Part shown: positions 13,327 to 35,138 of the stretch, one piece after another
How positions within the stretch are numbered: position 1 is the stretch's first letter
How the letters are laid out: every line of letters begins with the position of its first letter
Notes under the pieces: generated by a model
The model's input: the letters and a program-made list of their open reading frames with translations, nothing else
What the model was told of the DNA's origin: nothing
Database searches by the model: none
Program-made: the position numbers and the translations under genes
From: Nocardia brasiliensis NBRC 14402
GTDB lineage: Bacteria; Actinomycetota; Actinomycetes; Mycobacteriales; Mycobacteriaceae
Length of the DNA: 64,000 bases
Direction of reading: 5' to 3'
Assembly (NCBI RefSeq): GCF_000308475.2
Contig: NZ_BAFT02000060.1
Coordinates: 62,001 to 126,000 of the forward strand

Positions 13327-14771
13327 CGGTCGTAACGCACCTTCGCCAGGGCGAGACCACCGGTCACCACCGCCGTCGTCGGGGTCACCAGATTGGCCCA
13401 GCCCGACGCCGACTGCCACGCCGTGACCACAAGGGAGCGTGGCACCTTCGCGAAATCGGCGAGCGGCGCCATGATCGGCATGACCAGCGTGGCATGCCCG
13501 GAGCTGGACGGGATCAGGAAGCCGAGCGGGACGTTCACCAGAAACACCGTGACCGCGAACGCCACCGAGGACGTACCGGTTACCAGCCCTTCCAGGGAAT
13601 GCAGTGCGGTGCTGGTGATTTCGGTGTTGTTCATAATGACGGTCACCCCGCGCGCCAGCACGATCACCAGACCCGCGCCGACGAAATCACCGAAGCCCTT
13701 GCCGACGGCCTCGGACAACCTGTTCTCCCCCAGCCCGCCGACCAGTCCGACCACCACCGCACCCAGCAGGAACAGTGCGGTGAGTTCCGGGAAGTACCAA
13801 CCCAATTGCCAGCGGTAGCGCGCGGCGCCGGGCCCGTCGATCACCTCCGCCCACGGGATGATCGCGAAGATCATGAACGCGAAGGTCGCCGCCACCAACC
13901 AGAGCACCACCTGCTGACGCCGGGTCATCGGGTCGGGGCGATGATCGTCGGCCGATATCTCGCGGTCGCCGGGTTGCCAACCGGACCAAGACTTTTCCGG
14001 GTCACGTTTCACCCGCTCCGCGTACCGGAGCACGTAACCGACGGTGACGGCGGTGAGCACCACCAGCATCGCGAGCCGGAGCCCGATCCCCTCGCCGAGG
14101 GGCACGCCGGCCGCCGCGGACGCCGTGCCGGTGGCGAACGGATTCACCGTCGAACACAGCATCCCGACGCCGGCCCCGCAGATGATCGTGCCCACCGCCG
14201 TCATCCGGTCGTAGCCGAGCGCCAGCAGCAACGGCACCAGCAGGGCGTAGCAGCCGAGCGTTTCCTCCGCGAAGCCCTCGACCGTGCCCGCGATCGCGAA
14301 GACCAGCATGATGCCGACGATCAGCAGTGCGGACCGGTCACGCAACCGATGGGCCAGTCGCCCGATCCCGCTGTCGAGGGCGCCGGTCGCGAAGGCGACG
14401 GTGATGAACGCGCCGACCGCCAGCACGAACAGGAAGACCGCCGCCGCGCCGTAGAGGTGACCGGTCAGGTCCGGACCCACCTGACCCGACCTGTCGTCCT
14501 GCACGCCGTAGAGACCGTTGACCGGCGCGAGGAACAGCTCCCGCAACCGTTCGCCGAACCCCTTGGCATCGTCGACGCGGTGATAGGTCCCCGCGATCGG
14601 ACGGCCGAGCGCATCGGTGTCGTAGGCCCCCGGCGGAATCACGAACGCCGCGAGCCACACCAGCACCGCGACAGCGGCGAGGATCGTATAGGCCGAAGGA
14701 AAGAACCAGGTCTTCTGTGCCCGGTCGGCACGCACCGCTGGGTCCATGGCCGACATGCAACCATCCGCCAC
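13242..14771 (-). CDS. YfcC/DcuC-family carboxylate or amino-acid carrier
   Basis: A 509-residue inner-membrane protein with 11-12 hydrophobic segments and the features of the C4-dicarboxylate anaerobic carrier superfamily (YfcC/ArcD type): an N-terminal helix followed by VIPPGAYDTDALGRPIAGTYHRV, GTVEGFAEETLGCYALL, AGVGMLCSTVNPFATG and a closing segment with IPSSSGHATLVMPIMAPLADF. I chose a GTG start at 14771, seven bases after GGAGG on the coding strand; ATGs at 14756 and 14747 are alternatives. It probably exchanges organic acids or basic amino acids. It is convergent with the MFS gene and divergent from the ABC-F gene. Confidence 0.9.
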   Translation of the reverse strand: MADGCMSAMDPAVRADRAQKTWFFPSAYTILAAVAVLVWLAAFVIPPGAYDTDALGRPIAGTYHRVDDAKGFGERLRELFLAPVNGLYGVQDDRSGQVGPDLTGHLYGAAAVFLFVLAVGAFITVAFATGALDSGIGRLAHRLRDRSALLIVGIMLVFAIAGTVEGFAEETLGCYALLVPLLLALGYDRMTAVGTIICGAGVGMLCSTVNPFATGTASAAAGVPLGEGIGLRLAMLVVLTAVTVGYVLRYAERVKRDPEKSWSGWQPGDREISADDHRPDPMTRRQQVVLWLVAATFAFMIFAIIPWAEVIDGPGAARYRWQLGWYFPELTALFLLGAVVVGLVGGLGENRLSEAVGKGFGDFVGAGLVIVLARGVTVIMNNTEITSTALHSLEGLVTGTSSVAFAVTVFLVNVPLGFLIPSSSGHATLVMPIMAPLADFAKVPRSLVVTAWQSASGWANLVTPTTAVVTGGLALAKVRYDRYVRFVAPLLGLLGVLICGFLALGAVLR

Positions 14772-14833
14772 ACCTCTACCTCCGCAGCCGCGCCGGAAGC
14801 ATCGCTCGGGCGCCCGACCCGCGACTGATAGTC

Positions 14834-14847
14834 TGAGCACGTGCTCA
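14834..14847. promoter_or_regulatory. 14-bp perfect palindrome in a divergent intergenic region
   Basis: TGAGCACGTGCTCA is perfectly self-complementary. It lies in the 226-base gap between the carrier and ABC-F genes, and its core CACGTGCTC recurs at 14896-14904. It is a plausible operator for one or both genes. The cognate regulator is unknown and no regulator gene is adjacent. Confidence 0.45.
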
Positions 14848-14997
14848 TCGAGGTCGACAGACGCTAGCCGCCCGGTCGAAGGCGGCGCCCTGATACACGT
14901 GCTCGTTCGGAGTACGGCCGCGCCCTTCGCCGGCAGCCACAGGAATCTGTTCTCACCTCGCTGCCGCTCGCTCGCGAGCAGGAAGAGCCACTGACGC

Positions 14998-16587
14998 ATG
15001 TCCATCACCTCGGCAATCGCCCTGCACCAACTGACCTTCGAATGGCCGGACGGCTCCGTCGCCCTCGCCGACGTCGACGGCGCCTTCACCACCGGTCGCA
15101 CCGGCTTGGTCGGCCGTAACGGCGCAGGCAAGTCGACCCTGCTGCGCCTGATCGCCGGAAAACTCACCCCGACGTCCGGGCGCATCGAAACCACCGGCGA
15201 CGTCGGGTATTTACCGCAGACCCTCACCCTCGGACGCGACGCCACCATCGCCCAGCTGCTCGGCATCGCGGACAAGCTGGCCGCACTGCGCGCCATCGAG
15301 TCGGGCGCCAGCGACACCGCACATTTCGACATCATCGGCGACGACTGGGACATCGAGGCCCGGGCCGATCAGGCGCTACACGAAATAGGTTTCGGCGCAG
15401 CCGATCTCGACCGCACCGTCGGTGCGATCTCCGGCGGCCAGGCCGTCCTCGTCGCGATCACCGGCCTGCGCGTCCAGCGCAAGCCGATCACGCTGCTCGA
15501 CGAGCCGACCAACAACCTCGATCGCGAAACTCGCGCCCAGCTCACCGCGTTCGTCGACACGTGGCCGGGCACCCTCGTGGTGGTCAGTCACGATCTCGAA
15601 CTGCTCGAGCACATGGACGCCACCGCCGAATTGCACGGCGCGACACTGGAAGTGTTCGGCGGCCCCTACAGCGCGTGGCGCGAGCACGTCGAGCAGCAGC
15701 AGGCGGCCGCGACCCAGGCGGCCCGGACCGCCGAGCAGGCGCTGAAAGTCGAGAAACGCCAACGCATCGAGGCCGAGACCAAGCTGGCCCGGCGCGAACG
15801 CACCGGCCGCGCGACGCAGCAGCACGGCGGTATCCCGCGCATCCTGGCGGGTAACCGTGCCAGCAAGGCGCAGGCTTCCGCCGGCGCCATGCGCACCACG
15901 CTGGACGCCAAAGTTCGTACGGCCCAAGAGGTGCTGGACGCCGCGGCGGCGCGGGTCCGCTCCGACGAACACATCCACCTGGACCTGCCCGATCCCGACG
16001 TGCCACGCAGCAGGCGCATCGCGGAACTGCGCGACGGCGATCGCGGCGTCACGATCCAGGGGCCGGAACGGGTCGCCCTGATCGGCCCCAACGGCGCGGG
16101 CAAGTCCACGCTCATCGAGGATCTCGTGCACGGTCGCCGGCCCGAACGCGGCACCCTGTACACCGATCGCGTCGGATATCTCCCGCAGCGCCTCGACGGC
16201 TTGGACGAGCAGGCCGGCGCGGTCGAGAACGTGCACGCGGTGGCCGTCACCACTCCACCCGGCACCATTCGCAATCAGCTGGCCCGGCTGCTGCTGCGCG
16301 GCGCGGCGGCCGAACGCCCGGTGTCGAGCCTGTCCGGCGGTGAGCGTTTCCGAGTCTCGTTGGCGCGCTTGCTGCTCGCGGACCCGCCGGTGCAGTTGCT
16401 GATTCTCGACGAGCCGACCAACAACCTCGACATCGCCTCGGTCGACCAGCTCGTCGAGGCGCTCGCCGACTATCGCGGCGCACTCTTGGTGGTCAGCCAC
16501 GACTATCCGTTCCTGCGGCGGCTCGGCATCGACACCGTCGTCGCCCTCGACGCCGACGGTCGTTTCCGGCCGCAGGCCGCGCTGTAG
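14998..16587 (+). CDS. ABC-F family ATPase (ribosome-associated)
   Basis: A 529-residue protein with two ATP-binding cassettes and no membrane domain, the ABC-F layout. First cassette: Walker A GRNGAGKS near residue 40, signature ISGGQ, Walker [12 protein letters not shown] charged linker (about residues 235-310, rich in Ala, Lys, Arg and Gln) follows. Second cassette: [14 protein letters not shown] and [11 protein letters not shown]. Members act on the ribosomal exit site and may give antibiotic resistance or regulate translation. The first signature has Ile in place of Leu. The charged inter-cassette linker is of moderate length; whether it reaches the peptidyl-transferase centre cannot be judged. 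Housekeeping versus resistance is undecided. Confidence 0.94.
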
Positions 16588-22685: not shown

Positions 22686-24134
22686 GTGCCGGAATTCGAT
22701 CTACTGGTGATCGGCGGCGGACCGGGCGGCTACGTGGCCGCCATCCGGGGCGCGCAGCGCGGACTCCGGGTCGGCTTGGTGGAAAAGGAGCGCCCGGGCG
22801 GCGTCTGCCTGAACTGGGGTTGTATCCCGACCAAGGCGATGCTGCGTTCCGCCGAGGTCTTCCACACGCTCACCGCCGCAGCGGAATTCGGCGTCTACGC
22901 CGACAATGTGCGCTTCGACTTCGCGGCCGTGCGGCAGCGCAAGGACGGGGTCGTCAAGGAACTCACCGACGGCGTCGCCGGCCTGCTGAAGGCCAACGGC
23001 GTCACGGTCATCGAGGGTCACGCCCGGTTCGTCGGCCCGACCACGGTCGAGGTGCACGAGACCGGCGCGTCGCCCATTTTCGAGGGCGGTCCCCGCTACG
23101 CCGCCGCGCCGGGCGCGCCGGTGCGGCAGGTCAGCGCCCAGGACGTGATCGTCGCGACCGGTTCGGTGCCCGCGCTGTTGCCGATTCCCGGGGCCGACCT
23201 GCCCGGTGTCGTCACCTCCGACGGCGCGTTCGGGCTCACCGAGGTGCCGCGGCGCCTGGTGGTGATCGGCGGCAGTGCGGTCGGCGCGGAATGGGCCAGC
23301 CTGTTCGCCACGTTCGGCAGCCAGGTCACCGTGGTGGAAATGCAGGATCGCCTGGTTCCGCTGGAGGACAAGGAGATCGGCGACGCGCTCGGCCGCTCCT
23401 TCCGCAAACGCGGCATCACCGTGCTGACCGGGGCCACCGTCACCGCCATCGCCCAGGACGACGGCTTGCTGGTCTCGGTCGCCGGACCCAAGCCCCAGGA
23501 CATCCCCGCCGACGTCGTGCTGGTCGGGGTCGGCCGCCGGCCCAACACCGCGCACCTGGGTCTGGACGTCGCCGGAATCGGCACGGACGCACGGGGTTTC
23601 ATCGAGGTCGATGATCAGCTCCGGACCGGGGTCGAGCACGTCTACGCCATCGGCGACGTCACCGGAAGGGCACTGCTCGCCCATGTCGCCTCGCATCAGG
23701 GCCTCACCGCAGCCGACGTGATCGCCGGACACGACGCGCACATCGACTACACGGTGATCCCGGCCGCCACCTTCACTCATCCGGAGATCGCGAGCGTCGG
23801 GCTCACCGAGGCGGCCGCGCGTGCGGCCGGTCACGAGGTGATCACCGCCAAGTTCCCGTTCGCGGCGCTGGGCCGGGCGAAGACCTTCGGCGAGACCGAG
23901 GGCATCATGAAGATCGTTGCCGGGCAACGACATCGAGAGGTGCTCGGCGTGCACATCATCGGCCCGTCGGCCAGCGACCTGATCACCGAGGGCGCGCTGG
24001 CCATCTACTTGGAGGCGACGCTCGATGAGCTGGCCGACACCATTCACGCCCACCCCACCCTCGGCGAGATCGGCATGGAGACGGCGCTGGCCGGGCTCGG
24101 ACTGCCGGTGCACATCGCGCCGCGTAAGCGTTAG
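22686..24134 (+). CDS. lpdA: Dihydrolipoyl dehydrogenase (E3)
   Basis: A 482-residue flavoprotein disulfide reductase. FAD-binding GGGPGG (9-14), redox disulfide GGVCLNWGCIPTK with Cys40 and Cys45, an NAD-binding segment (GGSAVGAEWASLFATFG), a second FAD contact (EHVYAIGDVTG) and the C-terminal His-Glu motif (HAHPTLGEIGME) are all present. It reoxidises the dihydrolipoamide of the E2 subunit encoded three genes downstream and passes electrons to NAD+. The start is GTG with GAGGAG upstream. It is the first gene of a four-gene operon with nine-base gaps. The E3-first order is unusual but complete. Confidence 0.97.
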   Translation: MPEFDLLVIGGGPGGYVAAIRGAQRGLRVGLVEKERPGGVCLNWGCIPTKAMLRSAEVFHTLTAAAEFGVYADNVRFDFAAVRQRKDGVVKELTDGVAGLLKANGVTVIEGHARFVGPTTVEVHETGASPIFEGGPRYAAAPGAPVRQVSAQDVIVATGSVPALLPIPGADLPGVVTSDGAFGLTEVPRRLVVIGGSAVGAEWASLFATFGSQVTVVEMQDRLVPLEDKEIGDALGRSFRKRGITVLTGATVTAIAQDDGLLVSVAGPKPQDIPADVVLVGVGRRPNTAHLGLDVAGIGTDARGFIEVDDQLRTGVEHVYAIGDVTGRALLAHVASHQGLTAADVIAGHDAHIDYTVIPAATFTHPEIASVGLTEAAARAAGHEVITAKFPFAALGRAKTFGETEGIMKIVAGQRHREVLGVHIIGPSASDLITEGALAIYLEATLDELADTIHAHPTLGEIGMETALAGLGLPVHIAPRKR

Positions 24135-24143
24135 GAGCCGCAG

Positions 24144-25235
24144 ATGACCACCACGAGCGCTCCGCGCAAGACCACCCGTCGGGCCACCAAGGCCGCGCCT
24201 GTGCCCGCCGAATCACCTTTCGCCACCGAGGATCCCGCGGTCCTGCGTGGCCTGTTCCGCGACATGCTGTTCGTGCGGCGCTTCGAAGAGCGCACCGCGC
24301 AGAGCTACCAGCAGGCCAAGATCGGCGGCTACTGCCACCTGAACCTCGGCGAGGAAGCCACCGTGGTCGGCCTCGGCGCCGCGATGCGGCCCACCGACTA
24401 CCTGTTCACCAACTACCGCGAGCACGGGTACGCGCTGGCCAAAGGCATCGAGCCGGGCCGGGTGATGGCCGAGCTGTACGGCCGCGCCACCGGCACCTCC
24501 AAGGGCTGGGGCGGCTCGATGCACATGTACGACACCGCGACCCGCCTGCTGGGCGGCTACGCCATCGTGGGCGGCCAGGTTCCGCTCGCCATCGGCGCGG
24601 CGCTGGCCATCGACTACCGCGGCGGGGACGACGTGGTGGTGTGCCAGATGGGTGAGGGCACCACCAATATCGGCGCGTTCCACGAATCGCTCAACATCGC
24701 CGCCCTGTGGCGGCTCCCGGTGGTCTTCCTGGTGATCAACAACCAGACCGGCATGGGCACCACGGTCGAGAACTCCTCGGCCGAGCCAGATCTGTGGAAG
24801 CGGGCCGCCGCCTACCGCATGCGCGGCGAGCGGGTGGACGGCACCGACGTGCTCGCCGTGCGCGATATGGCGAGCGAACTCATCGAAGCCGCACGGCGCG
24901 AAGGGAAACCGGCGCTGCTGGAGGCGGTCAGCTACCGGCTCAAAGGCCACTCGGTGGTCGACCCGGCCAAATACCGCAGCACCGAAGCGGTGGCCACGGC
25001 GCGCGAACACGATCCGATCGCGCTGTGGCAGCACCGATTGCTCGCCGCCGAGGTGCTCACGGATCAGTCGCTGGCCGAGATCGAACGAGAGGTGACCGAA
25101 AGCGTGGTCGCCGCCGTGGAATTCGCCGACGCCAGCCCGCACCCGGACCCGTCGAGTCTGTTCGACTACAACTACGCCACGCCGGTCCCGAGCGACTCCC
25201 GCCGTCTGCCCGCCGACCCGCTCTTCACCGCCTGA
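24144..25235 (+). CDS. pdhA: 2-oxoacid (probably pyruvate) dehydrogenase E1 component, alpha subunit
   Basis: A 363-residue thiamine-diphosphate enzyme subunit. It carries MGEGTTNIGAFHESLN followed by LPVVFLVINN, the ThDP/Mg motif (GDG...NN, here GEG), and the phosphorylation-loop equivalent (YRLKGHSVVDPAKYRS). A basic N-terminal tail (PRKTTRRATKAA) precedes the domain. With the beta subunit it decarboxylates a 2-oxoacid and transfers the acyl group to lipoyl-E2. KGWGGSMHM and YREHGYALAKG are typical of pyruvate dehydrogenase alpha chains, so pyruvate is the likeliest substrate; branched-chain or acetoin dehydrogenase remains possible. Confidence 0.94.
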   Translation: MTTTSAPRKTTRRATKAAPVPAESPFATEDPAVLRGLFRDMLFVRRFEERTAQSYQQAKIGGYCHLNLGEEATVVGLGAAMRPTDYLFTNYREHGYALAKGIEPGRVMAELYGRATGTSKGWGGSMHMYDTATRLLGGYAIVGGQVPLAIGAALAIDYRGGDDVVVCQMGEGTTNIGAFHESLNIAALWRLPVVFLVINNQTGMGTTVENSSAEPDLWKRAAAYRMRGERVDGTDVLAVRDMASELIEAARREGKPALLEAVSYRLKGHSVVDPAKYRSTEAVATAREHDPIALWQHRLLAAEVLTDQSLAEIEREVTESVVAAVEFADASPHPDPSSLFDYNYATPVPSDSRRLPADPLFTA

Positions 25236-25244
25236 GGACCAACT

Positions 25245-26288
25245 GTGTCTACCAACCCCGCCGGCTCCGCAAGCGCCGCCGGCTACCAACCCCCAGCGCC
25301 TGTCATGACCTATCGCGAAGCGCTGCGCGAAACCCTGCGCGAGGAGATGCGCCGCGACGACGACGTCTTCCTGATCGGGGAAGAGATCGGCGTCTTCGAA
25401 GGCTCCTACAAGATCACCGCCGGACTGCTCGCCGAATTCGGCGAGAAGCGGGTACGCGACACTCCGATCGCGGAGGAAGGTTTCGTCGGCGCCGCGATCG
25501 GCGCCGCCATGCTGGGCCTGCGCCCGGTGGTGGAGATCATGACGATCAACTTCTCGCTGCTCGCGCTGGACCAGATCGTCAACCACGCCGCCAAGATCTA
25601 CGGCATGTTCGGCGGGCAGACCAGCGTGCCGATGGTCATCCGCACGCCGGGCGGCGGCGGCCAGCAGCTCGGCGCGACGCATTCGCAGAACATCGAGCTG
25701 TACTACGCCTTCGTGCCCGGTTTGAAAGTGGTGGCGCCCAGCACGCCCGCCGACGCCCGCGCACTGCTCAAGGCCGCGATCGAGGACGACGATCCGGTTC
25801 TGTTCCTGGAGAACCTGTCCCTCTACAACACCAAGGGCGAAGTGCCGGTGGACCTTCCGGCCGCGCAGATCGGCAAGGCCGCAGTCACCAGGGCAGGCAC
25901 CGACATCACGCTCATCGGCTACTCCCGGATGGCCACCGTCGCCACCCAGGTCGCCGAACGCCTTGCCGCCGAGGGTGTTTCTGCCGAGGTGATCGACCTG
26001 CGCAGCCTGCGCCCACTGGACCGCGAGACGCTCATCGCGTCCGTGCGCAAGACCGGCTGCGCGGTCGTCGGCGAGGACGACTGGCTCACCTACGGTATCG
26101 GCGCGGAGATCGCGGCCTCGATCTCCGATGGCGCGTTCGACTACCTCGATGCCCCGGTCCGTCGCGTCGCGATGGCCGAGGTTCCGCTCCCCTACGCGAA
26201 ACCGCTGGAGAAGCTCGCCCTGCCGTCCGCGGATTCGCTCTACACCGCCGCGGTGGAAACCCTTGCGGCCGTTGGCCGGAGGTCCTGA
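25245..26288 (+). CDS. pdhB: 2-oxoacid (probably pyruvate) dehydrogenase E1 component, beta subunit
   Basis: A 347-residue transketolase-type subunit. It starts at GTG nine bases after pdhA and has a Pro/Ala-rich leader of about 20 residues before MTYREALRETLREEM. The family blocks IGEEIGVFEGSYKITAGL, DTPIAEEGFVGAAIGAAM, TPGGGGQQLGATHSQ and EVIDLRSLRPLDRETL are all visible, so the pyrimidine domain and the C-terminal transketolase domain are intact. It completes the heterotetrameric E1 with PdhA. It overlaps nothing and is separated from the E2 gene by two bases. Confidence 0.95.
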   Translation: MSTNPAGSASAAGYQPPAPVMTYREALRETLREEMRRDDDVFLIGEEIGVFEGSYKITAGLLAEFGEKRVRDTPIAEEGFVGAAIGAAMLGLRPVVEIMTINFSLLALDQIVNHAAKIYGMFGGQTSVPMVIRTPGGGGQQLGATHSQNIELYYAFVPGLKVVAPSTPADARALLKAAIEDDDPVLFLENLSLYNTKGEVPVDLPAAQIGKAAVTRAGTDITLIGYSRMATVATQVAERLAAEGVSAEVIDLRSLRPLDRETLIASVRKTGCAVVGEDDWLTYGIGAEIAASISDGAFDYLDAPVRRVAMAEVPLPYAKPLEKLALPSADSLYTAAVETLAAVGRRS

Positions 26289-26290
26289 CC

Positions 26291-27622
26291 ATGCCCGAAA
26301 TCACCATGCCCCGGCTCTCCGACACCATGGAGGACGGCGTCGTCTCCGCCTGGCTCAAGCAGGTCGGCGAGCAGATCACCCGCGGCGAGGTCGTCGCGGA
26401 GATCGAAACCGACAAGGCGCTCATGGAGCTCGAGGCGTACGAGGACGGCGTGCTCGAGCAGATCCTCGCCGCGCCGGGGGTACGCGTGCCGATCGGTGAG
26501 CCCATCGCGATCGTCGGCGACGGGAGCGGCACTTCGGCGGCCGCTGCGCCGCCGGCGGATTCGGCGGCCGCGACACAACCGGCCGAGACCACTCCGGCGC
26601 AAGCTCGTCCGGCCGACCCGGCCCCGGAAACGCCTGCGGTGCACAGTGTTCCCGCCGCCGGCGCGGACGAGCGCAAGAAGTCGTCTCCCCTGGCTCGTAA
26701 GATTGCGCGGGAACTGGGGGTCGATCTCGCCGCCGTCGCCGGCACCGGCCCCGGCGGCCGGGTCACCCGTCAGGATGTGGAAGCCGCGCACCGCCAGGCC
26801 GCCGCATCCGGCACCACCGCCGCGCCCGGCCAGGCCGCCGAGCCCAGCCCAGTGGCCGAGGCGCCCTCCGGACCCGTTTCTCCCGCGTCCGCACCGAGTG
26901 TCGTTGCCGCACAGCCTGTCCCGGCGACAACAGACTACGAAGAGATCCCGCTCACCAACATCCAGCGGGTTTCCGCGGTCCGGCTCACCGAGAGCAAGCA
27001 GCAGGCGCCGCACATCTACCTGACCAGCGCGATCGACGTGACCGACCTGTTCGCCTTCCGCGCGCAGCTCAACACGACGCTGGTGGCCGCGGGCGAGGGC
27101 AAGGTCAGCGTCAACGACCTGCTGGTCAAGGCGGTCGCCACGACGCTGCGCAAGGACCCCGCGGTCAATGTCAGCTTCGCGGGCGACAAGCTGCTGCGCC
27201 ACCGGGGTATTCATCTCGGCGTCGCGGTGGCCACCCCGGCGGGTCTGCTCGTACCGGTGCTGCGCGACGCGGACCGCAAGAGCGTCTCCGAGCTGGCGGC
27301 CGAGAGCCGGGACAAGGCGGTCCGGGCACGCGAGCGCAAGCTCCGCGCGGACGAAATGTCCGGCGGCACGTTCACCATCTCCAATCTCGGCATGTTCGGG
27401 ATCGAGCAGTTCACCGCCGTCATCAACCCGCCGGAGTCCGCGATCCTCGCGGTCGGCGCGGCGGCCGACGAACTGCGCCTCGCGGACGGGGCCGTGGTGA
27501 CCCGCAAGATCCTGCGCGTCACCCTGTCCGCCGATCATCGCGCCGTCGACGGCGCGGTCGCCGCCCAGTTCCTCGCCCACCTGAAGGACCTGCTCGAGCA
27601 GCCGCTCCGCATCATCGCCTGA
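26291..27622 (+). CDS. pdhC: Dihydrolipoamide acyltransferase (E2)
   Basis: A 443-residue E2 with one lipoyl domain (residues 1-80, EIETDKALMELEA with lipoylated Lys42), an Ala/Pro-rich linker, a peripheral-subunit-binding domain (SSPLARKIARELGVDLAAVAG, about 135-170), a second Ala/Pro linker and a catalytic domain ending in HRAVDG (His416, Asp420). It transfers the acyl group from E1 to coenzyme A and forms the core of the complex. The single lipoyl domain separates it from the multi-lipoyl SucB-like protein of actinobacteria. It starts at the ATG two bases after pdhB, and a strong hairpin follows eight bases after the stop, so the operon ends here. Confidence 0.96.
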   Translation: MPEITMPRLSDTMEDGVVSAWLKQVGEQITRGEVVAEIETDKALMELEAYEDGVLEQILAAPGVRVPIGEPIAIVGDGSGTSAAAAPPADSAAATQPAETTPAQARPADPAPETPAVHSVPAAGADERKKSSPLARKIARELGVDLAAVAGTGPGGRVTRQDVEAAHRQAAASGTTAAPGQAAEPSPVAEAPSGPVSPASAPSVVAAQPVPATTDYEEIPLTNIQRVSAVRLTESKQQAPHIYLTSAIDVTDLFAFRAQLNTTLVAAGEGKVSVNDLLVKAVATTLRKDPAVNVSFAGDKLLRHRGIHLGVAVATPAGLLVPVLRDADRKSVSELAAESRDKAVRARERKLRADEMSGGTFTISNLGMFGIEQFTAVINPPESAILAVGAAADELRLADGAVVTRKILRVTLSADHRAVDGAVAAQFLAHLKDLLEQPLRIIA

Positions 27623-27952: not shown

Positions 27953-29293
27953 ATGGCGGATAATGAGATAGACCATTCGGCATCGACCCGGCAACTGCCG
28001 GGCGCACGGATAGCTACCGATTCGCGGCTGGCGCTGGACGGCGGTGTCCCCGTCCGATCGGCGCCCTGGCCGACTTATGACCGAGGCGCCGTGTGCGTCT
28101 ATCCCGAAGACGAGGCGGCGGCGCTGCGCGCCATTCGCAGCCACCTCTACTTCCGCTACGACTACCGGCCCGCGCACGAAACCGAGTGCGCCGGATTCGA
28201 AGCCGAACTCTGCCGCTATTTCGGCTGTAAGCACGCGCTGGCCACCGCCAGCGGCACCACCGCGCTGGCCTTGGCGATCATGGCCGCGGGCATTCCGCCC
28301 GGCAGTCTGATCGCCTGTCCCGGTTTCACTTTTGCGGCGACGCCCAGCGCCATCCTGCTCGCCGGATGCACGCCGTTCCTCGTCGACGTCGACGAGAATC
28401 TGCACTTGGACGTGGCCGATCTGCGGCGCCGGTGGACCCCGCAGGTACGCGCGATCATGGTGGTGCACATGCGCGGTTTCGCCGGCGACATGGCGGCCCT
28501 GCTCGAATTCGCCGACGAAATGGGTGTGCCCGTGTTCGAGGACGCCGTGCCGGCGCTCGGCGCGGAATTGGCCGGCCGTAAACTCGGCACCTTCGGCCTG
28601 GCGGGCGCTTTCAGCACTCAATCGGACAAGTCGCTCAACAGCGGCGAGGGTGGCTTTCTCGTCACCGACGACAGCGCGCTGTTCGCCCGCGCCACTGTGC
28701 TTTCCGGCGCGTACGAGGGACGATTACGCCGGCATTTCCCGGACGGCGAACCACCGATCAGCACCGATCTGGATCTGCCGCTGCTCAGTTTCCGCATGGA
28801 CGAGATCCGCGCCGCGCTGCTGCGGGCCGAGCTGGCGCGATTGCCGGTACGGCTGGCCGCGTTCCGGCGCAATTACGATCACGTCGCCGCGGCGCTGGCC
28901 GACGTCGACGGAATTCGGATCCGGCAACCGGTCGCGCCGGGCGCGTATCTCGGCGAGGCCTTCATCTTTCAGGTGCCGAGCGGGCGCGCCCAATGGTTTG
29001 CGCGGGCGCTGTGCCACGAGGGCATCGAGGCGCGCAATCTCGGTTCCGACGCCGACCACAACATCCGGGCGTTCTGGAATTGGCGATTCCTGTTCCGCGG
29101 CATGACGACCACCGCCATCCAAGCACTGCTGCCCGCGGCGACCCGCTATCTCCAAGGGGCCGTTGATGTTCCGCTCTCCTCGACGCTGACGCCCGCGGAT
29201 TGCGACGAACTCGTCACGGCGGTACGCAAAGTCGCCGCCGCCGAACTCGGCACCGAAGAGGGCGCGGGCTCCGCAGCGGCCGGGCAGCGATGA
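27953..29293 (+). CDS. DegT/DnrJ/EryC1/StrS-family PLP aminotransferase
   Basis: A 446-residue fold-type I PLP enzyme of the sugar-aminotransferase/AHBA-synthase superfamily. Visible: SGTTALALA (100-108) for the phosphate, CPGFTFAATPSAIL, FEDAVPALGA with Asp197, and FSTQSDKSLNSGEGG with Lys226 as the PLP-binding residue. It usually transfers an amino group to a keto-sugar, a keto-cyclitol or a related ketone. About 25 residues precede the conserved start (LALDGGVPVR), and a Glu/Gly/Ala tail follows the domain; both are longer than needed. First gene of the encapsulin operon; the next gene starts inside its stop (ATGA). Substrate unknown. Confidence 0.94.
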   Translation: MADNEIDHSASTRQLPGARIATDSRLALDGGVPVRSAPWPTYDRGAVCVYPEDEAAALRAIRSHLYFRYDYRPAHETECAGFEAELCRYFGCKHALATASGTTALALAIMAAGIPPGSLIACPGFTFAATPSAILLAGCTPFLVDVDENLHLDVADLRRRWTPQVRAIMVVHMRGFAGDMAALLEFADEMGVPVFEDAVPALGAELAGRKLGTFGLAGAFSTQSDKSLNSGEGGFLVTDDSALFARATVLSGAYEGRLRRHFPDGEPPISTDLDLPLLSFRMDEIRAALLRAELARLPVRLAAFRRNYDHVAAALADVDGIRIRQPVAPGAYLGEAFIFQVPSGRAQWFARALCHEGIEARNLGSDADHNIRAFWNWRFLFRGMTTTAIQALLPAATRYLQGAVDVPLSSTLTPADCDELVTAVRKVAAAELGTEEGAGSAAAGQR

Positions 29294-30450
29294 GCACCGA
29301 AGCCGGCGCGCTACCGCGGCTCGCCCTGGCCGGTGTGTTCGGCGGTCTGTTCTGCGGCTATCTCGGCCTGTCCGCGGCGATCCCGGTGCTGCCCGCGCAC
29401 GTCCGGGATCAGTTCGGGGCGGGCGATCTCGCGGTGGGGCTCGCGGTCACCGCGACCGCGCTCACCGCGCTGCTCACCCGTCCGATCTTCGGTGGGCTCG
29501 CGGATCGATACGGGCATCGCTGCGTCATGCGCTTCGGCGCGCTGGCGATCGCCGCGGGCGGCCTGCTGTACTTCCTCCCGGTCGGTCTCGCGGGCCTGAT
29601 CGTGGTCCGGCTGCTGCTCGGCATCGGCGAGGCCGCCCTGTTCACCGCGGGCGCGGTCTGGACCGTGGCGCTCGCCCCGCACCACCGTCGCGGCCAGGTG
29701 ATCGGCTTGTACGGCATCGCCATGTGGGGCGGCATCTCGCTGGGCACCGCGCTCGGTGCGGTCTTGCGGCACTTCGGCATCGATGCGGTGTGGGCGTTCT
29801 GTGCCGCCGCGCCGTTGCTCGGCGCGGTCCTGATCAACATCGTCGTGCCGCAACCGCACGTCGCGGCGGCCAGCGGCCGCGGGCTGCTGCTGCGGCCCGC
29901 GGTGCTGCCCGGGCTGGGCCTGGCGTTGGGCGCCGCGGGTTATGTCGGCCTGGCCGCGTTCGTGATCAGCGGTCTGCAGGAACGCGGCATCGACGCGGGC
30001 GTCGTCGTGCTGAGCACCTTCAGCGCGGTGTACGCGGGCACCCGGTTGTTCATCGGGCATCTGCCGGATCAGCTGGGCCCGCGCCGGGTCGCATCCTGGT
30101 GTGGCGCAGGCGAAGCCGCGGGGCTGCTGATCATCGCATGGGCGCCGAACCTGCCGGTCGCGGTGCTCGGCGCCGTGGTCATGGGCGTCGGATTCTCGCT
30201 CCTGCATCCCTCTTTGGCGCTGATGGTCATGAACAACACCGAAAACACCAAGCAGGGCGCGGCAATCGGCGCCTACACCTCGTTCTGGGATCTGGGCCTG
30301 TTCGTCTGGGGTCCGGCGACCGGGGCCATCGCGACCGGGTTCGGCTACCCCGCCGTCTTCGTGGTCGGCGCGGCCTGCGCGCTCGCGGCCTCGGTCCTGG
30401 CCATGACGATCCGGCAAGCAGTCACCACGGAGAAGGCAGTCGGCCGATGA
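29290..30450 (+). CDS. MFS exporter in the encapsulin operon
   Basis: A 386-residue membrane protein with 12 hydrophobic segments, starting at the ATG that overlaps the preceding stop. The MFS loop FGGLADRYGHRCVMRFG follows the second segment, and HHRRGQVIGLYGIAMWGG lies between segments 4 and 5. It is short, without a large central loop, as in small-molecule exporters. Its tight coupling to the aminotransferase and sulfotransferase suggests export of the operon's product, or self-protection. It overlaps the sulfotransferase gene by four bases (ATGA). Confidence 0.92.
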   Translation: MSTEAGALPRLALAGVFGGLFCGYLGLSAAIPVLPAHVRDQFGAGDLAVGLAVTATALTALLTRPIFGGLADRYGHRCVMRFGALAIAAGGLLYFLPVGLAGLIVVRLLLGIGEAALFTAGAVWTVALAPHHRRGQVIGLYGIAMWGGISLGTALGAVLRHFGIDAVWAFCAAAPLLGAVLINIVVPQPHVAAASGRGLLLRPAVLPGLGLALGAAGYVGLAAFVISGLQERGIDAGVVVLSTFSAVYAGTRLFIGHLPDQLGPRRVASWCGAGEAAGLLIIAWAPNLPVAVLGAVVMGVGFSLLHPSLALMVMNNTENTKQGAAIGAYTSFWDLGLFVWGPATGAIATGFGYPAVFVVGAACALAASVLAMTIRQAVTTEKAVGR

Positions 30451-31382
30451 CGAACCCCACCCCGCTGAAAGTCCTGTGCATCACCGGTTGGTGTCGCAAC
30501 GGCAGCACCATCATCGGCAACATCCTGAACGAGATTCCCGGCTTCTTTCACGTCGGCGAGCTGGCCTTCCTCTGGAAGAACGCGGCCGGGCGCGGCGTGA
30601 ACCAGGAGTGCGGCTGCGGGCTCGAGCTCGTCGACTGCCCGATCTGGTCCACCGTCCTGCCGATCGGTCAGCCCGCCGATACGCCGTTCGCCGCGCATGC
30701 CGACACGGTCATCCGGCGTCAGCTCGGCAGCGTCCGGACCCGCCACACCTGGCAGGTCCTGGGCCGCGGCCTGCGTAGCGCGCAGGTGCGCGCCCACGCC
30801 ACGCTGATGACCGAGGTCTATCACGCCGTCGCGGCCCGCTCGAACGCCCGAGTGATCGTCGATACCAGCAAGATTCCCGGCGAGGCCGCGCTGCTGCCGT
30901 ATCTCGACGGCATCACCCCGTACTACGTCCATCTGGTGCGCGACCCGCGTGCGGTGGCCCAATCCTGGAGCAAGCCGAAGGAATACGTGTACGCGATGTC
31001 GCCGGGCAAGAGCACCGGCTACTGGACCGGATTCAATCTCGCCACGCACGCGATCACCCGGCGCCATCCGCAACGCTCCCTGTTCCTGCGCTACGAGGAC
31101 TTCATCGCCGCGCCCGAACAGACCATCGCCGCGATGCTGGCGCACTGTGCGTGTGATCCCGCGGCGAACCCGGTCACCGATCGCACGGTCGAGTTGCACA
31201 CCAATCACACGGTGACCGGGAACCCGGACCGCTTCCACACCGGGGCCACCGTCATCCGTCCGTCCGACGATTCCTGGCGGTCCGGGTTGCCGAAGTCGGC
31301 CCAGCGCACCGTCGCCGCACTGTCCTGGCCGCTCGCACGCCGCTATGGCTACGCGCTCGGCACCACGAAAGCGAAGGGGTAG
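30447..31382 (+). CDS. PAPS-dependent sulfotransferase family protein
   Basis: A 311-residue soluble protein of the sulfotransferase fold. The 5'-phosphosulfate loop is ITGWCRNGSTIIGNIL near residues 11-26 (R-N-G-S-T in place of P-K-S-G-T), and the 3'-phosphate motif is YVHLVRDPRAVAQSW near residue 160. HVGELAFLW and LFLRYEDFIAAPEQTIAAML complete the family pattern. It would move a sulfonate group from PAPS to a hydroxyl or amine on a small molecule. Sulfotransferases are among the genes I recall as recurring beside family 3 encapsulins. The next gene begins two bases after the stop. Confidence 0.9.
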   Translation: MTNPTPLKVLCITGWCRNGSTIIGNILNEIPGFFHVGELAFLWKNAAGRGVNQECGCGLELVDCPIWSTVLPIGQPADTPFAAHADTVIRRQLGSVRTRHTWQVLGRGLRSAQVRAHATLMTEVYHAVAARSNARVIVDTSKIPGEAALLPYLDGITPYYVHLVRDPRAVAQSWSKPKEYVYAMSPGKSTGYWTGFNLATHAITRRHPQRSLFLRYEDFIAAPEQTIAAMLAHCACDPAANPVTDRTVELHTNHTVTGNPDRFHTGATVIRPSDDSWRSGLPKSAQRTVAALSWPLARRYGYALGTTKAKG

Positions 31383-31384
31383 TC

Positions 31385-32191
31385 ATGGATCTCGGGCTCG
31401 AGCACAAGGTAGCGCTGGTCGCGGGCGGGTCGAGCGGGATCGGGCTGGCCATCGCGCGGGAACTGGCAGCCGAGGGCGCGCACGTCGCGATCGGCGCGCG
31501 CGACGCCGCCCGGCTGGCCGCGGCGGAGCGGGCGGTCAAAGAGGTCGCGCGGGCCCGGGTGCACGCCACCAGTGTGGACATCACCGACAGTGCGGCCGCC
31601 CACCGCTGGATCGAGGAGGTCGCCGCCGAATTCGGTGCGGTGCACGTCATGGTGGTCAGCGGCGGCAGCCCGCCCACCGGGAACGCGGCCTGCTTCGCGC
31701 CGGCGGACTACCGGGCGGCGATCGATGGCGTGCTGATGCCCGCGGTCGACGTGGCCCTCGCCGCGCTGCCGTATCTGCGCAAAGCCCGTTGGGGCCGGGT
31801 AATTTTCGTGACCTCGGAGACCGCGAGCGTGCCCATCGGCGATCTGGCGCTGTCCGGTGTGACCAGGACGGCCATCACCCGTTTCGCCCAGTCCCTGGCC
31901 GTCGAGGTGGGCCGCGACGGCGTGACGGTCAACGTGCTGGCGCCCAGCGCGACCCGCACGCCCCTGCTGGAACGCGTGGTGGCGCAACGCACCGACCGGA
32001 TCGAAGCCGAGTTCGACACGCTGGGCAGGCACACCGCGATCGGGCGTATCGCCCACCCGGCCGAAATGGCCGCCGTCGCCGCCTTTCTGGCGAGCGCGCG
32101 GTCCTCCTATCTGACCGGGACGGTCCAACTGGTCGACGGCGGCGCGAGCCTGCTCGGCCCGAGCTGGTCACACCCCGCCGAACCAGCGTGA
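31385..32191 (+). CDS. Short-chain dehydrogenase/reductase, atypical catalytic residues
   Basis: A 268-residue SDR. The cofactor motif is GGSSGIG (14-20), and the usual NNAG is replaced by VSGGSPPTG (91-99). Ser144 stands in FVTSETAS, but the classical YxxxK reads S-G-V-T-R (Ser157 to Arg161), so the catalytic Tyr and Lys are both absent. A subgroup of FabG-like SDRs is known with a 'P-x-x-x-L-x-L-S-x-x-x-R' signature and an imperfect tetrad, and this protein fits it (PIGDLALSGVTR). It may be a redox enzyme with a different proton relay, or not a redox enzyme. The ATG follows the sulfotransferase stop by two bases. Confidence 0.92.
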   Translation: MDLGLEHKVALVAGGSSGIGLAIARELAAEGAHVAIGARDAARLAAAERAVKEVARARVHATSVDITDSAAAHRWIEEVAAEFGAVHVMVVSGGSPPTGNAACFAPADYRAAIDGVLMPAVDVALAALPYLRKARWGRVIFVTSETASVPIGDLALSGVTRTAITRFAQSLAVEVGRDGVTVNVLAPSATRTPLLERVVAQRTDRIEAEFDTLGRHTAIGRIAHPAEMAAVAAFLASARSSYLTGTVQLVDGGASLLGPSWSHPAEPA

Positions 32192-32228
32192 CCGGCACTG
32201 TCGCCGGCGACACGGAAGGAAGTAAAAC

Positions 32229-33104
32229 ATGCTGCACACCGATGGCGTGAAACCGACTCTGGCGCAGGTCGTCCGGGACCGCGCGCAGGAACTCTCCCCG
32301 GGACGGATGTTCGTGGAGTGCTGCGCCGAGCGGGGTCTGGACGCCGCGGTCGAGTACGACGTGACGATCACCGACTCGCTGACCAGTTCGCGGCGCAAGC
32401 CGCGCCACCCCGCGCGCAATATGCTCAAAGCCATTGACCTGTCCCGTGATCCGCGTCAGTACTACTGGCACGAAAGCCCGCCCGGCGCCGACGACGCCCC
32501 GATCGACGGCGCCGACGTCCGCCGGGAACTGGCCAGCAGGTTCCACAGGTCACCGATCCCGGAACTGCTGCCCACCACCGCCTGGGTCCAGGTGCCGCCG
32601 CAGCTGTGGGAGGACCCCGGCACGTTCGAATCCTTCATCGACTATCGCCTGATCGTGCGGCTGTGCACGGCGGAGAACTACACGATCATCGCGAGCGCGG
32701 GTGGCCTGCTCAACATTCCGGGCATCGAGCGGATGACCTCGGCCGGGCCGTTCAGCTCGACTATCCTGCGCGCCTGCAACGAGATCGAGCAGATGGGCGG
32801 CACCGCGGACGGCATGATCATCAACCCGGTCGACTACTACCGCGCCATGGGCACCGGGACCCTGATGACCGATCTGGAGCGCAACGGCGTGTTCATCGTG
32901 CGCACCCGCCTGGTCGAGCCGGGCAGTGCCATCGTCGGCGACTTCGGCCACGGCGCACAGCTTTTCGACGCCGGACGCTCGGTGATCCGGTTCGCCGAGC
33001 CACCGCCGGGCACGTTCACCGAGCCCGGCGCGGCGGTGATGGCGCAGATCTACGAGCGGGTCGTGGTTAACCTGCCGACCAACTTCTTCGTCGTCACCGT
33101 GTAG
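32229..33104 (+). CDS. HK97-fold capsid-like protein, probable family 3 encapsulin shell
   Basis: A 291-residue protein with the layout of an HK97-type major capsid protein. N-arm, residues 1-50; probable E-loop, about 52-100 (charged, with RRKPRHPARN). P-domain: RSPIPELLPTTAWVQVPPQL (107-126), the helix with TFESFIDYRLIVRLCTAEN (132-150), then IIASAGGLLNIPGI with the turn Gly165-Ile166. A-domain: MIINPVDYYRAM (196-207). Closing strands: AIVGDFGHGAQLFDAG (234-249) and ERVVVNLPTNFFVV (276-289). No portal, terminase, protease or tail gene is near, while five biosynthetic genes and an exporter surround it. This matches the proposed family 3 ('natural product') encapsulins, shell proteins inside biosynthetic clusters. 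It would assemble into an icosahedral compartment for operon enzymes. AAGGA precedes the ATG. Confidence 0.85.
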   Translation: MLHTDGVKPTLAQVVRDRAQELSPGRMFVECCAERGLDAAVEYDVTITDSLTSSRRKPRHPARNMLKAIDLSRDPRQYYWHESPPGADDAPIDGADVRRELASRFHRSPIPELLPTTAWVQVPPQLWEDPGTFESFIDYRLIVRLCTAENYTIIASAGGLLNIPGIERMTSAGPFSSTILRACNEIEQMGGTADGMIINPVDYYRAMGTGTLMTDLERNGVFIVRTRLVEPGSAIVGDFGHGAQLFDAGRSVIRFAEPPPGTFTEPGAAVMAQIYERVVVNLPTNFFVVTV

Positions 33105-33113
33105 GGGGCGTCG

Positions 33114-34416
33114 GTGTCCGAAGAGACGGCGCCACCCGTGCGCGACGACCCGGACGTCGTGGTCGTCGGGGGCGGGGCCGCCGGATTGTTCTGTGCCTAT
33201 CACCTGCGCCGCGCCGGTGCGGCGGTCACCGTGCTGGAACGCGGCGCGCTCGGCGGCCCGCAGTCGTGTTCCAGCGGGAACACAGGCTTCGTCGGCACGC
33301 ACGGCGCCGCGCCCTTGGCGGAGCCGGGAATGCGCTCGTGGCGTTCGCTCGCCATGCTGCATCCGGACGCCCCGTTCCATGTGCGTCCGCGGGCGGACCG
33401 CGAATTGCTGCGCTGGCTCGGTCATTTCGGGCGGGCCTGCACACCGTCGGCCGCGGCGACGGGGTTTCGGACCCTGGCCGAGATGAAGCGGCGCAGCCTC
33501 GAGATCCTGCACGAACTCTGCGTATCCGAAAGGATCGCGGACACTTTCGCAGCGCCCGGCATCGTCCTGACTTACCGGACCGCCCAAGGCTTTTTCCGCC
33601 GCGCGCGCGGCCCTCGCCCGCACCGTGGCCAACGGGATCCCGTTGCGCGTCCTCGCACCGGGCGAGCTGGACGAACTGGAGCCCAGGACCCGGTTCGCCG
33701 TCCACGGCGCGCTGTACAACCCGGAGGGCGCGTACCTGCGGGTGCCGGAGTTCGTGCTCGAGTTCGGCCGCCTGCTGCGGGCACTCGGCGTCGAGATCCG
33801 CGAATACACCGAGCTGACCGGCTTCGCGATCACCGCGGGAAAGATCGGTCGGCTCAGCACAACCCGCGGTGAGCTCCGTCCCGGTGCGGTGGTCCTCACT
33901 GCAGGCGCCTGGTCGACCGAATGCGCGCGGATGGCCGGGGTCGAGCTACCGCTGCAACCGATCAAGGGCTACAGCGTCACCATGGACCAGCCGCCGAACG
34001 GGCCGAGCCGTCCTGTCCTGTTGAGCGAAGGCCGGGTGGCGCTGGTCCCCCTGGGCGATCGCTTGCGCATCGGCGGCACCCTGGAGCTGACCGGCATGCG
34101 TAACACCATCTCCGACCGCCGGGTGCGGAGCATGTTGCGCACCGTCGGTGACTACCTGCCCGACCTCGAACAGACGCACACCCGCGAGACCTGGAGTGGT
34201 CTGCGCCCCAGCACACCCGACGGCGTGCCGGTCATCGGCCGGGCCGGGCCGGGCAACCTGATCGTCGCCGCGGGATACGGCCATATCGGCATGGGGCTCG
34301 CGCCGGCCGGTGGTGAGCTCGTCGGGCACCTGCTCGCGGGTGAGACACCGGTCACCGATCCGGATCCCTTGCGCCCGAATCGTTTCGGTGGGTCGCGTGA
34401 CCGGCAGCCGACATGA
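33114..34416 (+). pseudogene. DadA-like FAD amino-acid oxidoreductase, frameshifted by one extra T
   Basis: An FAD-dependent oxidoreductase of the D-amino-acid dehydrogenase (DadA) group in two frames. The first runs from the GTG at 33114: VVVVGGGAAGLFCAYHLRRA (Rossmann GxGxxG), SCSSGNTGFV, then LTYRTAQG. The second, from about 33596, continues AARAALARTVANG and runs to 34416 through LLSEGRVALVPLGDRLRIGG, WSGLRPSTPDGVPVIGR and AAGYGHIGMGLAPAGG. The frames join perfectly if one T is removed from the run TTTTT at 33591-33595 (giving QGFSAARAA), restoring about 433 residues, the family's length. All other motifs are intact, so the mutation is recent, a sequencing error, or slippage-dependent. 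It would oxidise an amino acid or secondary amine. The ATG of the next gene overlaps its stop. Confidence 0.88.
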
Positions 34417-35138
34417 CCGCGCACCCGGACACCAAGCGCGGCAGCACGATCGGCGTGTTGTGCCTCGACACCGCGTTCACCAAGCTCCCCGGCCATATCC
34501 GGAATCCGTCGACCTTCGACTTCCCCGTCGTCTACCAGGTGGTGCGCGGCGCGACACCGCAGCGGGTGGTGGCCGAGGCGGATCCGACATTGCTCGCGCC
34601 GTTCGTCGCCGCCGCAAAGGAACTCGAAGCCCGCGGGGTGGCCGCGATCACCAGCGGCTGCGGGTTCCTCGTCCTGTTCCAGCAGCAGTTGGCCGACGCC
34701 GTGCACGTCCCCCTGTACAGCTCGAGCCTCATCCAATTGCCGATGGTGCGCCGCATGATCGCTGCAGACCGCGAGATCGGCGTCCTCGTCGCCAAGCGGG
34801 ACGCGCTGACCTGGCGGCACCTGCGCGCGATCGGCGCCGAGACGCTGCCGATCCGCGTCGCCGGAATGGACGCGCACCCCGAGTTCCGCGAGGTCGTCCT
34901 CGAGGGCCGCCGGACCGCGCTCGACGCCGACCGGCTCGGGCGTGAGGTGCTCGCCGAGGTCGACCGCCTGGCCGCGGCGCAGCCGGCGCTCGGCGCGCTG
35001 GTGATCGAATGCACCGACCTGGTGCCCTACGGGCACGCGATCCAGCGCCGTCTCGGCATCCCGGTGTTCGACATCGTCACGCTCACCGAAATGGTGCATC
35101 GCAGCCTGTGCCACCGCCCTTTTCGCAGCGGCCGGTAG
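34413..35138 (+). CDS. Aspartate/glutamate (hydantoin) racemase-family protein
   Basis: A 241-residue cytosolic enzyme. It shows the two-domain pattern of the Asp/Glu racemase superfamily with a paired-cysteine active site: Cys83 in AITSGCGFLV and Cys200 in VIECTDLVPYG. GVLVAKRDALTWRHL starts the second domain. Members racemise or epimerise amino acids without cofactor, or act as maleate isomerase/decarboxylase relatives. Next to a DadA-like enzyme it may supply or invert the stereocentre of an amino-acid building block. Its start overlaps the preceding stop by four bases (ATGA). It is the last gene of the operon; the next gene is convergent. Confidence 0.9.
   Translation: MTAHPDTKRGSTIGVLCLDTAFTKLPGHIRNPSTFDFPVVYQVVRGATPQRVVAEADPTLLAPFVAAAKELEARGVAAITSGCGFLVLFQQQLADAVHVPLYSSSLIQLPMVRRMIAADREIGVLVAKRDALTWRHLRAIGAETLPIRVAGMDAHPEFREVVLEGRRTALDADRLGREVLAEVDRLAAAQPALGALVIECTDLVPYGHAIQRRLGIPVFDIVTLTEMVHRSLCHRPFRSGR

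Follow-up and report, generated by a model that had tools for sequence, protein, structure and literature searches.

The 64,000-nucleotide stretch of Nocardia brasiliensis NBRC 14402 analysed here (contig NZ_BAFT02000060.1, positions 62,001 to 126,000; hereafter the window) carries a gene for a capsid-like protein that is almost certainly the shell protein of a family 3 encapsulin, a conclusion on which sequence model, profile, fold and gene context agree. The shell gene lies in a conserved biosynthetic cassette of seven or eight genes, which presumably makes a natural product. The protein adds one more member to a family that was published in 2021, the kind itself being already known. What is new is that such shells occur in four differently built clusters (classes 1 to 4, with the window in class 1) and that a sulfotransferase (ST) is the sole enzyme common to all of them. 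This pattern suggests that the common feature of family 3 shells is a neighbouring enzyme attaching sulfate. It is the comparative ST pattern that is worth following, and a story of enclosed cargo and aldehydes is not the best fit.

Identity and fold of the shell protein

It had been predicted that the gene encodes a family 3 encapsulin, and this identity was borne out by the NCBIfam model NF041188, a profile match to HK97, the predicted fold and the gene context. The original prediction had also named a search against encapsulin profiles as a check. Indeed, NF041188.2 ('family 3 encapsulin nanocompartment shell protein') matches the shell well over its cut-off of 180 bits (317.6 bits, E 5.3e-95), with model positions 1-266 of 266 covered, so that a chance resemblance can be discounted, while Pfam-A gave nothing for the window shell, even at E 10. 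A phmmer search of the single sequence against the Protein Data Bank (PDB) yielded weak matches only, the best being HK97 gp5 with an E of 0.0056. Because Pfam-A was empty and these matches were weak, the shell sequence taken singly would be ambiguous on these searches. A profile of 37 relatives matches HK97 gp5 with an E of 2.5e-14 over positions 59-273. At E values up to 10 the shell profile has eight PDB matches, every one of them a phage capsid chain and none a family 3 structure. In PHROGs, 17 of the 37 relatives match the major head protein phrog_10 (best E 0.00014), and the window protein is without match.

The capsid-like motifs that had been read from the sequence are present (G165-I166, I197-I198-N199-P200, V236-G237-D238-F239 and E276-R-V-V-V). 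Moreover, a structure prediction aligned to HK97 and to encapsulins, the other check that had been suggested, gave an HK97-like fold. The AlphaFold2 model is of moderate quality, with a predicted local distance difference test score (pLDDT) of 69.5 and a predicted template modelling score of 0.64 (pLDDT of the five models 50.5-69.5), and is weak at residues 1-8, 48-66 and 219-224. Foldseek aligned it to the HK97 prohead with an E of 2.4e-14 and VIA with a Z of 17.2 over 237 residues (root-mean-square deviation 5.0); encapsulins of families 1 and 2 reached Z 10.8-12.8 among the VIA matches listed. Sixteen residues are invariant in 56 shells (F28, R59, E100, P123, F136, R140, R144, E149, N150, E187, R225, R227, D238, F239, P283 and F286), of which R144, N150, R225 and R227 differ from HK97 in the profile alignment. 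The crosslinking Lys169 of HK97 aligns to shell position 98, where the autocatalytic lysine is absent: this position is Arg in 35 of 35 class 1 shells, Arg in six class 2 shells and Leu in five, and Thr in all ten shells of classes 3 and 4. The ratio of nonsynonymous to synonymous substitution rates of the shell gene is 0.10-0.22 in eight comparisons with Nocardia orthologues, and the gene is therefore maintained under purifying selection.

A quick tree was built from 56 shells and five prophage-like capsids (the weak matches L007-L011, whose prophage status is presumed). The shells form one side of this tree (SH-aLRT 100), with a long-branch warning between shells and capsids. Every class forms one group (support 100, 94, 89 and 97), with class 3 sister to class 4 (99); how this pair branches relative to class 1 and class 2 is not settled by the shell tree. 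Representative class 2 shells are 38-44% identical to those of class 1, and classes 3 and 4 are further away (23-30%). Among the 20 matches listed of 119, the closest phage capsids have 26-29% identity to the protein, over 63-65% of its length.

With the 'natural product' encapsulins of family 3 (Andreas and Giessen 2021, PMC8346489) the window shell shares the family model, a biosynthetic cluster with an ST and a short-chain dehydrogenase/reductase (SDR), an actinobacterial host and a neighbourhood in which no phage genes were seen. Among the features described in the consulted parts of that paper, none differs in a way that would exclude membership. The original prediction had called the locus the best candidate for an undescribed system, which did not hold, as the family, its biosynthetic clusters and the ST and SDR neighbours had been published in 2021 (PMC8346489). 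In turn, its remark that few if any family 3 shells have been characterised accords with two later papers, which describe families 3 and 4 as still being without experimental validation (PMC10960027, 2024; PMC12140327, 2025). Furthermore, no cargo, structure or function of the shell is reported for family 3 in the parts consulted of the open-licence PMC literature that was searched. From family 1 and 2 encapsulins (Pyrococcus furiosus 2e0z, Dendrosporobacter 9i8e, Myxococcus xanthus EncA and Streptomyces 2B), with which it shares the HK97 fold and a place in an enzyme operon, the window shell differs in that their fold scores lie below that of the HK97 prohead, no known cargo class adjoins and no targeting peptide was recognised. 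It shares its fold with the HK97 gp5/D3 phage capsids but differs from them by Arg98 at the Lys169 position and by its metabolic rather than phage context. Its N-terminus is presumably also too short for the delta scaffold domain of HK97.

Four cluster types and a constant sulfotransferase

One scan of named genomes yielded 35 loci, and genome searches added further members. Shells were found in 16 of 150 genomes of Nocardia, the genus of the window, and in 14 of 343 genomes of a second genus, inferred to be Streptomyces, 13 of them above the model cut-off. A 396-genome sample of the window's phylum held shells only in the window genome and in one other (G049), a 398-genome sample of the phylum of locus L050 held none beyond L050's own genome, and plasmid searches for the other classes gave no match except two remote ones of 23% in Proteus records. 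With duplicates dropped and the window included, there are 59 distinct loci, in which partner genes were scored by tblastn (1e-8) within 8 kb of the shell. The GC-frame gene caller used for the loci missed or misplaced some genes, for instance the shell of L040, and key counts were redone with tblastn. Gene functions outside L026, L050, L083, L142, L148 and the window are assigned by similarity to the genes of those. The locus sample is without the Mesorhizobium and Myxococcus clusters.

Class 1 (37 loci) has the order aminotransferase, major facilitator superfamily (MFS) transporter, ST, SDR, in some loci a methyltransferase, shell, flavin amine oxidase of the Pfam DAO family, and racemase. 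Its hosts are Nocardia, Micromonospora, Nonomuraea, Streptosporangium and metagenome-assembled genomes, one of which is labelled Chloroflexi. All seven genes, methyltransferase aside, are present in 31 of the 37 loci; the incomplete ones are either cut by contig ends (L027, L034, L043) or lack the MFS gene or more (L032, L045, L046). The aminotransferase gene is on the opposite strand in L031 and L045, and the methyltransferase, found in 21 loci, is missing from all 15 Nocardia loci and from L039. An internal TAG interrupts the N. crassostreae shell gene (L025/L014; L006 and L025 lie on one contig), and the locus has only a partial MFS match, possibly due to decay of the cassette or to an assembly error.

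Class 2 (12 loci) combines an adenylation-thiolation-reductase protein (A-T-reductase), an aldo-keto reductase (AKR), an ST of another family and the shell, with the MFS gene in 9 and the DAO gene in 11 loci. The adenylation code, read by motif, is DSW-D-IG-A/G-IG-K in five of six A-T-reductases, the sixth being without an A4/A5 match; the code pointed to no substrate that could be named with confidence. L153 (genome G702), where the shell match is shortened and the A-T-reductase reduced to a fragment, is probably degenerate. Class 3 (5 loci) consists of a transaldolase-like gene, the gene for U374, the shell, ST, CysD, CysN/C and MFS. U374, a protein of 374 residues beside the shell (L083, 10715-11836, minus strand), looks Rossmann-like by eye, and searches of Pfam (empty) and of the PDB gave no credible match for it. 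One Nocardia genome (G467) holds two shells, one of class 1 and one of class 3 (L083, L095), 1.4 Mb apart. Class 4 (5 loci) contains the shell, ST, SDR, a LysZ-LysK fusion and CysC-CysD-CysN, the latter being truncated in L141 and to some extent in L140. Its divergent genes, named on L142, encode a LysR regulator, LysW, LysX, a semialdehyde dehydrogenase, a split transketolase, an AMP ligase and an acyl-CoA dehydrogenase. In the 59 loci, DAO was counted 46 times, MFS 47 times, SDR 43 times (including two class 3 loci in which the match is distant, 6.0 and 7.6 kb away), and AKR and genes for the synthesis of 3'-phosphoadenosine-5'-phosphosulfate (PAPS) 12 times each.

The ST is the only enzyme present in all four types. 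By tblastn, 58 of the 59 loci have it no more than 2.6 kb from the shell, and the sole miss is L034, a truncated locus with 838 bp ahead of the shell match. The linkage also holds from the side of the enzyme: in the 150 Nocardia genomes, a search with the window and class 3 STs gave 18 matches, all in the same 16 genomes that have shells, and 17 adjoin the shell; the eighteenth (G549, C313) is cut by the end of its contig, and no shell belonging to it was found. Likewise, eight of nine matches in the 343 genomes of the second genus lie beside a shell, the ninth (G679) being in a region that looks exopolysaccharide-like from its translations. Genes for PAPS synthesis (CysD, CysN/C or adenosine 5'-phosphosulfate kinase) accompany the shell in 5/5 class 3, 4/5 class 4, 2/12 class 2 and 1/37 class 1 loci.

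Class 2 uses an ST of the Sulfotransfer_5 family (tested on L050), classes 1, 3 and 4 share one other type, and no locus matches both types at E 1e-8 (46 and 12 loci). Because class 2 shells are nearer to class 1 while classes 1, 3 and 4 share their ST type, it would be simplest to assume that class 2 swapped its ST and kept the function next to the shell. Inheritance of a linked operon explains the linkage in part, and the difference of class 2 is the part left over. The constant partnership goes beyond the wording of PMC8346489, which divides family 3 into six classes and where STs are described as 'commonly found' and as 'conserved pairs ... in many'.

The operon in the window

The window follows the order of class 1, with overlaps or short gaps between the genes (Table 1), and the neighbours that had been named (DegT-type aminotransferase, MFS transporter, ST, SDR, DadA-like and Asp/Glu-racemase-like proteins) proved to be as described.

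Table 1. The shell gene of the window and the cassette around it (positions counted from the first letter of the window).
Feature	Position	Strand	Basis
DegT/DnrJ/EryC1-type aminotransferase dependent on pyridoxal 5'-phosphate (PLP), cassette gene 1	27953..29293	+	Pfam DegT E 1.4e-58
MFS transporter, probable exporter	29200..30450	+	Pfam MFS_1 E 2.1e-44
PAPS-dependent ST, Sulfotransfer_3 type	30447..31382	+	PDB 4gox, 4gbm; Pfam
Atypical SDR, Ser/Arg at YxxxK positions, long C-terminal tail	31385..32191	+	Pfam adh_short_C2 E 4.8e-39
Ribosome-binding-like GGAAGGAAG ahead of the shell gene	32214..32222	+	GGAAGG at 32214-32219, read in the sequence
Family 3 encapsulin shell protein, HK97 fold	32229..33104	+	ATG start, 291 aa; NF041188, HK97 profile, AlphaFold2 model
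DadA-like FAD-dependent amine/D-amino-acid oxidoreductase, frame-broken near 33591	33114..34416	+	Pfam DAO, two open reading frames
Asp/Glu/hydantoin-racemase-like protein, PRK07475 subfamily, last cassette gene	34413..35138	+	NF005679 E 4.7e-84, above cut-off

The aminotransferase has Lys226 in a SxxxKxxxxGEGG-type stretch that is kept in 32 of 32 aligned rows (the window and three duplicate strains counted), and by this motif the residue is probably the PLP lysine. The MFS gene probably starts near 29290, where it would overlap the aminotransferase stop, as in the gene calls of L085. For the ST, Sulfotransfer_3 was matched with an E of 1.4e-08, measured on a longer open reading frame (ORF; 29724-31379). 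The racemase-like protein keeps Cys83 and Cys200 in all 34 rows, among which the window and duplicates are counted. The DadA-like gene does adjoin the shell gene, as had been noted, but it is not intact: one half is read at 33114-33872 and the other, in another frame, at 33625-34416, and near 33591 the gene differs by one base in length from its L085 homologue. Both halves are constrained (omega 0.18 and 0.25), and the break is therefore recent or an assembly error. The DadA-like gene is split in L020 too, which is the same contig as L093.

The 20 flanking ORFs scanned (20655-41872) contain no phage family by Pfam at E 0.001, in agreement with the original prediction; four of them have no Pfam match at all. 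Upstream, positions 22686-27622 encode lipoamide dehydrogenase, E1 alpha and E1 beta (by Pfam) and E2 (by translation), with a PucR-type regulator ahead at 21333. This 2-oxoacid-dehydrogenase-like set was rejected as part of the system, since it adjoins the cassette only in L017/L086, L018/L012 and L085. The downstream ABH, CHAD, TopoIB and GCS genes were rejected likewise, since those loci alone, and L087 in part, have them in this order. Elsewhere in the window, the AT skew is positive (0.20-0.21) at 8001-10000 and 14001-16000 and ranges from -0.18 to 0.11 in the other 2-kb stretches.

Possible roles of sulfate and shell

The mechanism that we consider would begin with self-assembly of the shell protein into a closed shell, like that of other encapsulins, whose role would be tied to the PAPS-dependent ST encoded beside it. 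The ST would sulfate a hydroxyl group of an amino-containing small molecule and, in at least some pathways, the sulfate would serve as leaving group when, at a later step, a ring is closed or an elimination takes place, by analogy with the aziridines of azinomycin and vazabitide. The shell would confine the ST or its activated electrophilic product until this is finished, and the MFS transporter would then export it. In class 1, the SDR with its conserved disordered tail would be the best candidate for a shell-loaded protein. Taken as a whole, this sulfonation-linked mechanism is given a probability of about 0.38. In its sharpest form, family 3 encapsulins would be sulfonation compartments, retained across four or more pathways of different build, in which a sulfate-activated electrophile (aziridine-like, another ring or an elimination product) is formed or held off DNA and other nucleophiles until export, with the SDR-derived protein of class 1, which lacks the usual catalytic pair, loaded by its tail; this form we consider unlikely.

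A role of sulfate as leaving group is suggested because the PDB matches of the STs are of an activating type and because the class 4 genes resemble a known route of this kind. The class 4 ST has a single PDB match up to E 0.01, namely 4gox (6.9e-8, listed as 'Polyketide synthase'), which we take to be the ST domain of an olefin synthase (Ols). The window ST matches 4gox with an E of 0.0059 and the CurM ST (4gbm) with an E of 0.42, its two other matches being antibody fragments. These two are the only STs among the PDB matches of the window and class 4 enzymes, which stand alone, whereas CurM and olefin synthase STs are polyketide synthase domains. The CurM and olefin synthase enzymes are described as 'activating' STs, the sulfate being lost afterwards (PMC3903477). 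Similarly, 2,6-diamino-5,7-dihydroxyheptanoic acid (DADH) is sulfated and the aziridine then closed by displacement of the sulfate (PMC9570651). With its LysW-type amino-group carrier protein (AmCP), LysX, LysZ-LysK, semialdehyde dehydrogenase and split transketolase, class 4 has most of the DADH genes given in that paper; with the azinomycin and vazabitide pathways it thus shares AmCP, kinase/hydrolase, semialdehyde dehydrogenase, transketolase and sulfation genes. LysW was found near the shell in 5/5 class 4 loci and near neither the window shell nor any other class 1 shell, and transketolase was identified in class 4 only; in contrast to the azinomycin and vazabitide pathways, the window class has neither AmCP nor transketolase. 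Chloromyxamide, the one studied product of the family, contains 6-chloromethyl-5-methoxypipecolic acid (PMC8346489) and could arise via chloride opening of an aziridine-like ring.

For the loading step, the C-terminus of the class 1 SDR was compared with those of other proteins. It extends 15-20 residues past the DGG motif in 27 of 27 rows (two of them duplicates), in contrast to at most 11 in 27 control SDRs, of which ten tails were read by eye. The SDR tails of non-Nocardia loci are 20 residues long (16 of 17) and share 60% pairwise identity (73% in the core); the tails of class 1 STs vary in length and share 19% identity. In an AlphaFold2 model from an 18-SDR alignment led by L026, the last 22 residues are mostly below a pLDDT of 50, compared with 82.8 overall. 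Thus, the tail, conserved and predicted to be disordered as would be expected of a loading peptide, is the best candidate for a cargo signal, for class 1 only. A C-terminal signal shared by class 1 SDR and class 2 AKR was rejected, as class 4 SDRs are tail-less and the AKR end (HRWDR...) looks ordinary for an AKR. The aminotransferase N-terminus and the ST C-terminus were rejected as loading signals because they are not conserved in all loci, and no signal common to all classes was seen in the proteins compared.

Several points weigh against the sulfonation-linked mechanism. The case for assembly, cargo and product is drawn from the genes, and gene linkage indicates a shared pathway, not encapsulation of the ST, the terminal tails of which vary. 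The PDB match of the window ST is weak. Class 4 has no match to the DegT aminotransferase, and no aminotransferase was found among the L142 genes scanned; the azinomycin route needs one. Therefore, class 4 points to some sulfate-dependent chemistry and not to an aziridine as such, the formation of a different ring or an elimination being equally likely. No known leaving-group pathway matches classes 1-3. The SDR tail occurs in class 1 only, class 4 SDRs being without it, and the Nocardia tails, that of the window included, differ save for a loose GPxxxH-like stretch, for which reasons it cannot be a family-wide signal. Replacement of the ST in class 2 is probably best regarded as the simplest reading only, since the branching order is unsettled. 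Moreover, sulfated products are proposed in PMC8346489, and the description of a Mesorhizobium class seen there names an SDR, a phosphoserine aminotransferase and a phosphatase with no mention of an ST; this class may be an exception.

The best surviving alternative, doubtful though credible, is a vessel for aldehydes or ketones: tailoring oxidoreductases would be enclosed in the shell, and the cytoplasm would thereby be spared a reactive carbonyl or imine. Family 3 shells have indeed been proposed to sequester aldehydes or ketones (PMC8346489), and the original prediction had likewise favoured shielding of an aldehyde, imine or amino-acid intermediate. A carbonyl-reductase-like gene (SDR or AKR) occurs in classes 1, 2 and 4, the A-T-reductase of class 2, expected to release an aldehyde, stands with the AKR near the shell, the flavin amine oxidase is widespread, and in class 3 the Rossmann-looking U374 might replace the reductase. 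However, class 3 operons have neither SDR or AKR (beyond the two distant SDR matches) nor DAO, and the DAO gene is missing from class 4 as well and broken in the window. Furthermore, Ser157 and Arg161 replace the YxxxK pair in 32 of 32 cluster SDR rows (27 of class 1, including two duplicates, and 5 of class 4). The pair is present in 22 of 27 control SDRs (L099, L101, L103, L104 and L106 being without it), and SDRs lacking YxxxK thus exist outside shell clusters too. Because of the Ser/Arg at these positions, a function of the SDR as an ordinary ketone reductase is not secure. With SDR and DadA-like proteins absent from some cluster types and the ST alone in all four, shielding of such an intermediate is not favoured.

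It is rather unlikely that each cluster type loads a different protein, with the SDR entering by its tail in class 1 and sulfation being a mere neighbour in the pathway. The near-fixed length, conservation and predicted disorder of the tail, together with its absence from controls and class 4 SDRs, would fit this explanation; the divergent Nocardia tails and the lack of a comparable tail on the proteins of other classes that were examined speak against it.

Still less probable is that the HK97-fold protein is no cargo shell at all and instead an open assembly, a ligand binder or an enzyme, for example for sulfate elimination. Among the L142 class 4 genes scanned, the shell is the only protein left unassigned (edge ORFs of 85 and 756 residues lie outside the scan), and the invariant Arg144, Asn150, Arg225 and Arg227, at which HK97 differs, would suit anion binding. 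Against this, we know of no enzymatic capsid fold of such a kind. The azinomycin closure enzyme AziU3/U2 is described as having a novel fold (PMC11168924); it was not among the sequence matches of the shell profile nor among the 50 matches listed per fold search, and the folds may still agree. Finally, a capsid remnant of a prophage or gene-transfer agent, with which the identity to phage capsids and the HK97 profile match would be consistent, has a negligible probability and was rejected because metabolic synteny is conserved in dozens of loci, family 3 is set apart from the five prophage-like capsids in the tree and the flanking ORFs scanned contain no phage genes.

The constant ST partner turns the puzzle of shell function into a specific, testable question, for which the conserved SDR tail provides a concrete candidate cargo signal. 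It also suggests that a sulfate-activated reactive intermediate is a possible new reason for compartments in secondary metabolism. If true, the sulfonation compartment would, to our knowledge, be without precedent as a compartment organised around the activation of a group by sulfation.

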